Assembly: GCA_030950285.1 (NCBI GenBank)
Contig: JAUZRR010000033.1
Coordinates: 1 to 64,000, forward strand
Source: Planctomycetota bacterium
Lineage (GTDB): Bacteria; Planctomycetota; Phycisphaerae; Phycisphaerales; UBA1924
Length of the DNA stretch: 64,000 nt
Reading direction: 5' to 3'
This document shows positions 1,650 through 4,725 of the stretch, piece by piece. Position 1 is the first letter of the stretch; the number at the start of each line of letters is the position of its first letter. The notes beneath the pieces were generated by a model. That model ran no database searches. It had not been told where the DNA came from and was given only the letters and a program-made list of their open reading frames with translations. The position numbers and the translations under genes are program-made.

Positions 1650-1800
1650 CATAAAAACCGACAATGGAACATCAGAACTCCGGTCTTCGGACCATTTTGG
1701 GCCGATTCTGTCCTTGCCCGACATGCCAAAGAGCCCTGGCCACGGGGCCAACACGCCTTTCTGAGTGCGTTCGTCCGGCTGACAGAAAGCCCCACCCGGG
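1650..1800 (-). ncRNA. Putative tracrRNA of the type V CRISPR locus
   Basis: On the minus strand, 1785-1780 reads CTGTCA and 1770-1748 reads ACGCACTCAGAAAGGCGTG followed by TTGG. Both blocks match the complement of the crRNA repeat: CTGTCA can pair with its 3' TGACAG, and the second block pairs with CGCCTTTGCGAGCGCGT with only a few mismatches. The blocks are separated by nine extra bases (GCCGGACGA) that would bulge out. Downstream on the same strand are small hairpins (GGCC-CCGT-GGCC; GGTC-CGAA-GACC) and a run of five T near 1655, a possible 3' end. The outer limits given are estimates. A tracrRNA is expected for several Cas12 subtypes, including Cas12b, e, f and g. The anti-repeat is directly seen; transcription is inferred. 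Confidence 0.75.
1748..1785 (-). repeat. CRISPR anti-repeat, split by a 9-nt insert
   Basis: This is the segment that aligns with the repeat. Block A (1780-1785) matches 6 of 6 bases. Block B (1748-1770) matches 15 of its first 19, with two further G-U-compatible positions and then GG. The 1771-1779 insert (TCGTCCGGC on the plus strand) has no counterpart in the repeat. The match is far longer than the background expected for a roughly 400-base interval, and it is on the strand that would pair with the crRNA. Confidence 0.8.
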
Positions 1801-2019
1801 CACAAGGCTCGGGGGGTATTGGGCAGAGATCAGGCACGAGTGCCATTCACCTGCCACGCCGATTCTGACTCGACAGCACCGGACGGTCCGCCGCCGGGCC
1901 TGTAGCCGGGCGGCCGCGCCGGGATGTTCTCCCGGTAGCATCACAAGCATACTGCAAAGCGGTGGTTCCGGCAAGAGGGGCGGGCGAGGTGCCCACCCCA
2001 CGGGTGCCAGATACCTGCC

Positions 2020-4233
2020 TCAGAAAGGCGTCTCGGGCATAGGCTCGCCGGCCGGGTCAAGACCCAGCACCCGCTGCGCCCCAGTCTCGATGGTGTCCTT
2101 GTCGACCTCATGCCCATTGACCCTCCACACATAGGCCCGGCCGTTGCGGTTCTTGCTCTTGACCGTGGCTGTCTTGGGGAACAGCCCGAGCAGCACGCGG
2201 TGCAGGTTCTCGCTGGCGTTGATGTCGGCGTGGACCTGTCGCTCACAGGCCGGGCAAACGAACCAGTGGCCAAGGTGATGCAGGTGCGGGGTGTTTCGCA
2301 GGGCGTCTCCAGACTTGCCTTCGAGTACCTTGGCCCGCTTGGCCCGCCACTTGGGGGCACCCCGATCAAACCGGATGCCCATCGCGTCACACGCGGCGCA
2401 GATTCGGCTCGTGAAGTACGAAGGCACCTTGAAGACACGCAACCCATAGGTCTCGGCGGCCTGCTCGGCAAAGCCCACGATCGCGCCGCGGTTCCAGCTC
2501 GAAAGAGCCGCGTTGATTCCGCGATCGTTGGCCGAGTCGGGGTTGAGCATCTTGAGGTCCTCGAAGATGACCGCAGCGGCCCCGTAGTGGCGGGCATAGC
2601 AGAAGATCGCCGCGACGCCCTTCTTGAACCGGTCCTCCTGCATGTTGCGGTAGTGGGCGGCCATGCGGGCGCAGGATTCCTTTCCCGGGGCCATTTTGCC
2701 GGTAGCGCGGCGCATGCGGCGGAGTTGCTTCTTCACGCGGGCGACCTCGGACAGCGAGGGAATGTTGATCGCCCGCTCGCGGCCCTCGCCGAGGAAGAAC
2801 CGGTTGTGGAGGACGCGGCGGGCGATGATCTCGCTCGTCCAATCCTTTGTCTCGGGGTCGAGCACGCTGCGGGCGATGCTGGCTGCGCCAAGATCGCGGA
2901 TGCCCAGATCGACGGCGCAGGTCAGCAGCGGCTCATCGGGCGTCCAGTCCTGCTTGGCGAGTTCCTTCTGCTGCCAGGAGACGGCGTACTTGCCGGCGGA
3001 CTTCTGGGCGATTCCGATCGCGCAGGGCGGGGGGGCGATCTCGAAGGACACGAGCAGATGCCACCCCCCACCCGACCCGTCACGTTTGACGAGTTTCAGG
3101 CCCTGCGGCTGGGCGGGGACGGTGTCACCGGCAGGTGTCTGCCACTCGTAGTTGAGAGTCTTCCTCTTGCCCTCGGTGATCTTGATCGGCTCGGCCAGTC
3201 GTCGCAACGCCCGGATGCGGCGGTCGGCGACAAACGAGACCCGTGTCCACTTGCCCTTACCTTCCTCGTATAACGCAAGCTCGACAGTCCCGGCATCAAG
3301 GCAGAGGTTCTGCCAACCCTCGCCCCCCTTGAAGCGCGGCCAGTCGGGGTGTTTCTCGATGCTTGGCAGCGTGAAACTCGGTCGGTGGCGGAAGCCGTCG
3401 GGGTGGCGGCGCTTGGCGCGGCGACGCACATACTCCCGCTCGTAGGAGTTGTGCTCGCGGTCGAACGCCGCCAGCTCGGGATTGAGCTTGAAGACCAATC
3501 CGTTGAGCGCGCCGGCCACCTTCTTCCTCGGCTTCTTTTGGATGATCTCGTCGATCTGCTCCTGTGTCGGATGGACAGCCCGCGTGCCCGGTGTCTGCCA
3601 CGACACTATCTCGGGCGAACCGAGCAGGAAGTCACACCACGCCGTCCAACGCACACGCGACCCACGGGCCGCGCCCCGCTCACGCTCGAATGCCTCAACC
3701 AGCGGGCGGACCTTCATGTAGTCCGGGTGCTCGTCTTCCCACTTCTGCTTCGCCTTGATCCACTCGGCGTGCTCTGATTGCCAGAGTTTGTGCAGTTCTT
3801 CGTACGACTTGATGTACTCGATCGACCGGCGGTGCATCTGGCCCCACATCCCGTTGGGGATCGAGTCACGCACGGCCGACAACTGCGAGTGGCCCCCGTC
3901 GTTGTCATGGTTTTTGGTCTCCGCGTGCTCGACACGGTATTGTTGTGACAAACTGAACTTGTCGGTGTCCTTAGGCGGATCTGGCAACGGCTTGGTCAGC
4001 CAGGTGAGCGGGTCGGACTGGACATTCTTCGCGCAGTACGCCCACATGGCCCGCCCGCTCGGCCCCAGCCGCCCCGCCCGCATGTCCATCAGCACCGCGA
4101 CAGTTCCCGCCACCGCTTCGTTCCACTGGGCCAGCCGCCGGTCGAGCAGTTCGGCCAGTTCCGGCCTGTCCACATGCACCTTCATCTGCCAAGTCTTCTG
4201 TGCCATGAACCTAAGTGTACGGGGTTCGTTCAC
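2020..4233 (-). CDS. Compact Cas12 effector nuclease, Cas12g-like (type V CRISPR)
   Basis: Predicted RNA-guided nuclease of 737 aa from GTG 4233, or 728 aa from ATG 4206 (MAQKTWQMKVHVDRP), which has a weak AGG in front. RuvC-I is CAVDLGIRDLGAAS (D442), RuvC-II is VIFEDLKML (E558) and RuvC-III is HADINASENL (D670). A zinc site is formed by ICAAC (612, 615) and VCPAC (660, 663). The N-terminal 400 residues are mostly helical, including a charged segment near 150-170 (WQSEHAEWIKAKQKWEDEHP). That helix, the beta-rich part ahead of RuvC and the total length recall Cas12g, which is RNA-targeting and tracrRNA-dependent, rather than the much larger Cas12a or Cas12b. TnpB proteins are shorter. It lies upstream of the tracrRNA and array on the same strand, with no adaptation genes nearby. 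Nuclease activity is inferred from intact catalytic residues; the subtype call is from memory, not alignment. Confidence 0.88.
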   Translation of the reverse strand: MNEPRTLRFMAQKTWQMKVHVDRPELAELLDRRLAQWNEAVAGTVAVLMDMRAGRLGPSGRAMWAYCAKNVQSDPLTWLTKPLPDPPKDTDKFSLSQQYRVEHAETKNHDNDGGHSQLSAVRDSIPNGMWGQMHRRSIEYIKSYEELHKLWQSEHAEWIKAKQKWEDEHPDYMKVRPLVEAFERERGAARGSRVRWTAWCDFLLGSPEIVSWQTPGTRAVHPTQEQIDEIIQKKPRKKVAGALNGLVFKLNPELAAFDREHNSYEREYVRRRAKRRHPDGFRHRPSFTLPSIEKHPDWPRFKGGEGWQNLCLDAGTVELALYEEGKGKWTRVSFVADRRIRALRRLAEPIKITEGKRKTLNYEWQTPAGDTVPAQPQGLKLVKRDGSGGGWHLLVSFEIAPPPCAIGIAQKSAGKYAVSWQQKELAKQDWTPDEPLLTCAVDLGIRDLGAASIARSVLDPETKDWTSEIIARRVLHNRFFLGEGRERAINIPSLSEVARVKKQLRRMRRATGKMAPGKESCARMAAHYRNMQEDRFKKGVAAIFCYARHYGAAAVIFEDLKMLNPDSANDRGINAALSSWNRGAIVGFAEQAAETYGLRVFKVPSYFTSRICAACDAMGIRFDRGAPKWRAKRAKVLEGKSGDALRNTPHLHHLGHWFVCPACERQVHADINASENLHRVLLGLFPKTATVKSKNRNGRAYVWRVNGHEVDKDTIETGAQRVLGLDPAGEPMPETPF

Positions 4234-4390
4234 GCGACGAGGCAGACGAATCTGCTCTCGGATGCAGTGTCAAGGCGGAATGAAGCTCGGGGAGTTGAAT
4301 ATGGAAACCGAACGCCCGCCAACTACGCCCTACGTTCTCGGACGAGCCCATAAAAACGGCCGTTGGAGGCCGCTCGTGCATGGTGCCTCG

Positions 4391-4621
4391 CGAATCGTCG
4401 CACGATTCGGCCGAATCGTCCCACGAAACGCGCGGATCGTTCCACGAAACCGGCGGATCGTTCCGCGATTCGGGCGGATCGTGCGACGAAACGGCCCAAT
4501 CGTTCCGCGAATCGCCTCCATCGTCCCACGAAGGAGCCTCTCCGCGCCACGAATCGACGCCTTCGTGCCGCGATGGAGCCGCTTCGTGCGACGGATCGAC
4601 GCCTTCGTTTCGGGAATCGGT
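4391..4621. repeat. Eleven-unit 21-bp degenerate tandem repeat
   Basis: Consecutive 21-base units run from 4391 (4391, 4412, 4433, 4454, 4475, 4496, 4517, 4538, 4559, 4580, 4601). The best conserved core is ATCGTnCCACGA, a short interrupted palindrome (TCGT...ACGA). Later units drift toward CTTCGTGC. All plus frames and at least two minus frames stay open, giving seven-residue periodic peptides such as RIVPRNR on plus and RGTIRPN on minus. It begins about 160 bp upstream of the cas12 start. It could be a decayed coding repeat, a DNA-binding array or a structural repeat; the sequence does not decide. Confidence 0.8.
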
Positions 4622-4628
4622 ATGCCGT

Positions 4629-4725
4629 CATGGCCACCCAAAGCTGTGGCCATGGCACCCGCCACCCAAAGCTGTGGCCATGGCACCCGGCACCCGGCAC
4701 CCGGCAGAGCCATGGTCATGGCACC
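4629..4725. repeat. CATGGCCAC palindrome cluster
   Basis: CATGGCCAC-CCAAAGCT-GTGGCCATG (4629-4654) is followed by a partial second copy (4661-4682) and by short CACCCGG repeats. An almost identical 37-base copy with the same flanks (CCGTC before, GCACCCG after) is at about 61209-61245. This identifies a dispersed hairpin-forming element. Confidence 0.8.

Follow-up and report, generated by a model that had tools for sequence, protein, structure and literature searches.

A probable tracrRNA of a compact, Cas12b-like system in a planctomycete, with an internal stem where a bulge had been proposed

The window, the whole stretch of 64,000 nucleotides that was analysed, starts at one terminus of a 77-kb contig of a Planctomycetota bacterium. 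In minus-strand order it holds a Cas12 gene, a stretch of about 420 nt in which no plausible gene is seen, and a CRISPR array.

2020-4233, minus strand: gene for a compact Cas12b-like effector, listed with 737 aa
707-1599, minus strand: CRISPR array of 14 repeats (36 nt each) separated by 13 spacers (29-30 nt)

In the orientation of cas12 the repeat sequence is GGTGGCTCCGGCCCGCCTTTGCGAGCGCGTTGACAG, and each of its 14 copies ends in TTGACAG. The array is nearly uniform; the repeat at 707-742, the most distant from cas12, is degenerate at its TTGACAG end, and this position on the side away from cas12 fits a leader at the cas12 side. Type V-B systems have a T-rich PAM and cut dsDNA; neither a comparison of the 13 joined spacers with phages nor two scans of viral contigs for exact matches gave a protospacer. 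The interval that separates cas12 from an enoyl-CoA hydratase-like gene contains degenerate 21-nt and 42-nt tandem repeats (4389-4608, unit near CGAATCGTCCCACGAAACGG), after which two copies of 28 nt stand at 4633-4695.

By sequence comparison the effector is closest to Cas12b, and it appears to be of a compact, V-B2-like kind. The short Cas12b models of PADLOC match it at 4e-88 over residues 10-693 and are matched by all 11 members of the family; the next family in the profile search is Cas12f (9e-12). The NCBIfam Cas12b equivalog NF033949, a model of full-size Cas12b with 1,253 positions and a cut-off of 150 bits, gives 63.1 bits and covers the C-terminal part only, and with this score below the cut-off the protein is not a canonical long Cas12b. 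An AlphaFold2 model of moderate quality (pLDDT 68.7) has the Cas12b structures 5wti and 5wqe as its top Foldseek matches (TM 0.52), with Cas12g close behind. The RuvC residues D442 and E558 are invariant in alignment A2, and D670 is present in those members whose sequence covers this position. Homologs suggest that translation probably starts at the ATG of residue 10, near 4206.

Relatives at 26-36% identity (L010/L013, L011/L014, L012/L015, L017, L018, L052, L053, L054, L055 and L056) come from planctomycete genomes and from one MAG labelled Afipia (L018), and the effectors of the family measure about 690-800 aa. L017, from Planctomycetes bacterium RBG_13_46_10, is 30% identical to the window effector. 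Three loci have a neighbouring Cas1-like gene, and the two tested, L017 and L056, encode a Cas4-Cas1 fusion; Cas1 was not found in the genome of the window, which is 94.55% complete. The effector was absent from 400 sampled genomes of the same order, its own genome excepted, and searches of viral contigs, phages and plasmids returned no useful relatives. The Afipia-labelled protein (L018:1330-3555) is without the stretch that holds the first zinc-ribbon cysteine pair of the other members, either through an in-frame loss or through an assembly fault.

Between the Cas12 gene and the array, the minus strand reads CTGTCA (1785-1780), GCCGGACGA (1779-1771) and then ACGCACTCAGAAAGGCG; positions 1770-1752 are ACGCACTCAGAAAGGCGTG. 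The features that bear on the interpretation of this spot are as follows.

1780-1785, minus strand: CTGTCA, which complements the end of the repeat but has no counterpart here in any of the seven homologs
1754-1771, minus strand: putative long anti-repeat (LR/AR), AACGCACTCAGAAAGGCG, pairing with the repeat middle
1872-1876, minus strand: putative short anti-repeat (SR/AR), CTGTC, pairing with GACAG at the repeat 3' end
1878-1885, minus strand: predicted stem a, 5' strand, CGTCCGGT, pairing with 1779-1772
1772-1779, minus strand: predicted stem a, 3' strand, GCCGGACG, the bases formerly read as a bulge, pairing with 1885-1878

A sequence-only reading had placed a tracrRNA anti-repeat here, on the minus strand, and this is very probably what the spot is; the proposal that separate blocks address the 3' end and the middle of the repeat is likewise supported. 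Of the 18 bases in the long anti-repeat, 15 pair with the repeat middle, and the long duplex begins exactly five bases from the repeat 3' end in the window as well as in L018, L053, L054 and L056. Taken alone, the duplex between repeat and intergenic region is not significant in DNA this rich in GC, since 39 of 200 dinucleotide shuffles score equally. CTGTCA is the exact complement of the last six bases of the repeat, and finding it no more than 20 nt from the anti-repeat is rare by chance (15 of 5000 shuffles, in a test that was picked post hoc). The anti-repeat (1748-1765) also shows an 18-nt inverted match of 89% to the 3' end of cas12 (2019-2036, encoding ETPF and the stop). We considered a regulatory, repeat-like site, but a cause at the protein level is likelier, as most members' proteins end in TPF or PF.

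Conserved anti-repeats, which the sequence-only reading expected of homologous loci, are present there, and cas12, the tracrRNA region and the array share one strand in every locus with an assembled array. Seven homologs have both an array and a tracrRNA region (L014, L015, L017, L018, L053, L054 and L056). All seven carry a site that can pair with the final 5 nt of their repeat; it lies 91-99 nt 5' of the long anti-repeat, and none of them has such a site adjoining the long anti-repeat. Their repeats all end in GACAC and the short site is GTGTC (GTGTT in L014), with a second, weaker site at 102 nt in L017. The window repeat ends in GACAG, and the window holds CTGTC twice, at 1876-1872, 105 nt from the long anti-repeat, and at 1785-1781, 14 nt from it. 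Repeat end and short site thus change together, from GTGTC/GACAC in the homologs to CTGTC/GACAG in the window, and the G-C pair of the former against the C-G pair of the latter amounts to one compensatory change. Because only the window varies, the short duplex is not demonstrable by permutation alone (653 of 5000). The complementarity of CTGTCA to the repeat end holds; its proposed role as the short block at that place is not supported, the homologs using the upstream position.

The locus L013 (genome G145) does not fit neatly: its array is split over two contigs (L013 and L057) and the end of its repeat is unclear, and it was left out of the short-duplex comparison. The repeat has a run of 7-9 C and ends in CTGTG, unlike the GACAC of the family, and the tracrRNA of this locus is without a clear short site. 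A proximal TGTCC-8 nt-TTCGCG in L015 resembles the arrangement first proposed for the window; it lies far from the conserved tracrRNA and near the array, and was taken as chance.

The nine bases between CTGTCA and the long block had been described as lacking a partner, and it was suggested that the resulting bulge forms an element recognized by the effector. Eight of them can pair gaplessly with CGTCCGGT at 1885-1878, through seven Watson-Crick pairs and one G-U, and the ninth, A1771, is the first base of the long anti-repeat and pairs with the repeat. Most homologs show a comparable pairing, between the bases immediately 5' of the long anti-repeat and those immediately 5' of the short site, as GCCGTCG/CGACGGC, GCCTTCG/CGAAGGC, TTTTCGG/CCGAGAA, GCGAT/ATCGC and others; in L014 an inserted hairpin interrupts the stem. 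The strands of stem a pair at 100% when both come from one locus and at 35% when they come from different loci, with up to four pair types per position, and the long duplex at 98% against 42%; the helices in these permutations were picked by eye, which makes the figures flattering, and an architecture search is the fairer test. In that search the place of the long anti-repeat was given, the short site and stem a were searched for, and the result was scored against shuffles. For the window the best solution is the layout listed above, equalled by 0 of 300 shuffles and by 31 of 5000 in a larger run. L015, L017, L018 and L056 each gave 0 of 300, L054 2, L053 5 and L014 28 of 300. Judged from these comparisons, the supposed bulge is one strand of a conserved, covarying internal stem, and a role as an unpaired recognition element is not borne out.

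Folding calculations point the same way. When the tracrRNA is linked to the repeat, stem a and the long duplex form in the unconstrained fold (-120.3 kcal/mol); enforcing both while leaving the short site open for the knot gives -119.1 kcal/mol, and enforcing the arrangement with CTGTCA beside the long block gives -115.6 kcal/mol, differences that are small relative to the error of such energies. Of the checks that had been proposed for that arrangement, co-folding yields the long anti-repeat/repeat duplex and finds the arrangement itself less stable, and covariation across related loci is seen for the long duplex and stem a. It is improbable that CTGTCA at 1785-1780 acts as the short anti-repeat beside the long one, with a nine-base bulge, as a rearrangement specific to the window. 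Its six exact pairs with the repeat end and its rarity by chance speak for it, as does an isolated duplex with the repeat end that is more stable than that of CTGTC at 1876-1872 (-6.3 versus -4.7 kcal/mol); it is opposed by the conservation of the distal site in every homolog compared and of the proximal site in none, by the covariation of the stem that takes up the bulge bases, and by the less stable fold.

The RNA was also predicted to be about 140 nt long, to lie 3' of the anti-repeat from 1785 and to end near 1655. Its conserved features instead run 5' to about 1935 and end in a 3' element at 1732-1718, so that most of the RNA would lie 5' of the anti-repeat, from about 1945 to 1718.

1718-1945, minus strand: putative tracrRNA, about 220 nt, both ends predicted
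1946-1974, minus strand: TTGCCG-17 nt-TATGCT, a weak promoter-like candidate upstream of the tracrRNA, from its sequence
1919-1935, minus strand: hairpin P2, CCGGGAGAACATCCCGG, in the free minimum-energy fold
1890-1914, minus strand: hairpin P3, GCCGCCCGGCTACAGGCCCGGCGGC, containing the family motif GGCTAYAGG
1863-1867, minus strand: stem P5, 5' strand, CAGAA, counterpart of GTGCTG in the homologs
1783-1787, minus strand: stem P5, 3' strand, TTCTG, overlapping the CTGTCA block
1738-1749, minus strand: hairpin GGCCCCGTGGCC, a short way past the 3' end of the long anti-repeat, resembling GTTGGCCCCGTCGGGGCC of L054
1718-1732, minus strand: conserved 3' element, TCTTTGGCATGTCGG (TCTTTGACAAGTCGG in the homologs)

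The promoter-like pair has 8 of 12 consensus bases and falls under the threshold of the promoter scan. Across the family, the anti-repeat is preceded on its 5' side by the GGCTAYAGG hairpin, stem a, the short site, P5 and inner hairpins, and followed on its 3' side by one hairpin and the TCTTTGACAAGTCGG element. None of 1000 shuffles scores as well as the window's 3' element in its place. A scan for terminators found none, and a longer precursor may reach the T-run near 1655. An Rfam search returned nothing, and covariance models built from the relatives without the window (R1, from 4 loci, and R2, from 8) did not recover the window core; with the intergenic region alone (424 nt), only P3 appears in the family models, at an E value of 0.05. 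R1 recovers L017 strongly (2e-11) and finds L013, L014 and L015 in the right place but weakly (0.016, 0.044 and 0.43). As the models miss the window core, the window RNA is divergent, and it was assigned by its layout, its spacing, stem a and two motifs, not by overall similarity.

Other pairings and blocks were noted in the same region. The conserved TCTTTGACAAG element could pair with a TGTCAA short site in several homologs, as if covering that site before the crRNA binds; this pairing, between TTTGACA of the 3' element and TGTCAA, is not kept in the window or in L056 and was rejected. Pairing of TTCTGTC (1787-1781) with a downstream GACAGAA is possible and was set aside, being without comparative support. 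A second conserved, hairpin-like block, GCGAGTGCGAYGGT...GCACGCTCGC, lies between tracrRNA and array in L053, L054, L056, L017 and L018, and L054 and L056 have further copies of GCGAGTGCG up to the first repeat; these are perhaps leader elements for spacer uptake.

In our view the element is very probably the 3' portion of a tracrRNA that serves a compact CRISPR-Cas12b system of type V-B (V-B2-like). The sequences, their complementarity, the conservation of the layout in homologs and the covariation of stem a and the long duplex were computed, and from these the following model can be drawn. A tracrRNA would be transcribed in the cas12 direction, extending from about 1945 to about 1718, and would be processed. 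Its 5' half would form hairpins, after which stem a (1885-1878 with 1779-1772) would close a domain. Just inside stem a, CTGTC (1876-1872) would form the short duplex with GACAG, the five bases that end the repeat, and just outside it, AACGCACTCAGAAAGGCG (1771-1754) would form the long duplex with the repeat middle. The resulting pseudoknot would set the crRNA spacer in register in the bound effector, which would then cut target DNA with its RuvC site.

Use of both CTGTC sites, for example with one of them serving while the tracrRNA is free, or with the repeat end switching between 1876-1872 and 1785-1780, would suit their symmetrical position on either side of stem a in the window and their shared match to the repeat end; it is not conserved in the homologs, its proximal block overlaps a strand of P5, and we regard it as very improbable. 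Equally little credit can be given to a degenerate or dead locus with accidental complementarity and no functional tracrRNA, a reading that would agree with the non-significant long duplex, the Cas1 not found and the core missed by the family models, and that is contradicted by an open 737-aa effector with conserved RuvC residues, a nearly uniform array of 14 repeats, and the conserved architecture and 3' element.

If the tracrRNA model is correct, it provides a testable guide-RNA design for small, little-studied Cas12b relatives of planctomycetes (about 690-800 aa) and fixes the bases that a single-guide RNA must keep. It also illustrates how an apparent bulge in a single sequence becomes a stem once homologs are compared. 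More speculatively, and we think this unlikely, the extra hairpins of the V-B2-like tracrRNA of about 220 nt (the GGCUAYAGG hairpin, P5-P7 and the conserved 3' UCUUUGACAAG element) might replace lost parts of Cas12b, with the proximal CTGTCA of the window as an alternative docking site for the repeat end. Cas12f is a small effector that depends on a large RNA, and if extra RNA domains do replace protein parts here, the group would be another example of this kind. Our literature search found no paper on the tracrRNA of the compact Cas12b group, which is not proof that none exists.

The combination of a long duplex, a 5-bp short duplex and a pseudoknot is a known design, the published scheme of types V-B, V-F and V-G, whose guides have LR/AR and SR/AR duplexes with a pseudoknot and often a bulged long stem (PMC11246509). 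Among known systems, type V-B Cas12b (AacCas12b, BthCas12b and BhCas12b) resembles the window in that its tracrRNA maps between cas12b and the array (PMC6342934), and in its long duplex, guide-adjacent short duplex of 5-7 bp and pseudoknot (PMC11246509), which in the window were obtained by computation. The window differs from canonical Cas12b in its effector of about 740 rather than about 1,100 aa, in a predicted tracrRNA of about 220 nt that has additional hairpins as well as the conserved 3' element, and in the family's repeat ends GACAC and GACAG. In AacCas12b, the stem CAACGGG/CCCGTTG is one that we take to stand in the position of stem a. Type V-G Cas12g is similar in effector size, depends on a tracrRNA, has short and long duplexes and is the second-best fold match, but its profile matches the window effector far more weakly (1.7e-11 versus 4e-88 for Cas12b). 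The compact planctomycete Cas12b group, which includes L017 and which we presume to be subtype V-B2, shares with the window its effector family, gene order and tracrRNA scheme. Within this group a Cas4-Cas1 fusion lies upstream in L017 and L056, whereas the window stands apart by the most divergent RNA core and by a genome in which Cas1 was not found.
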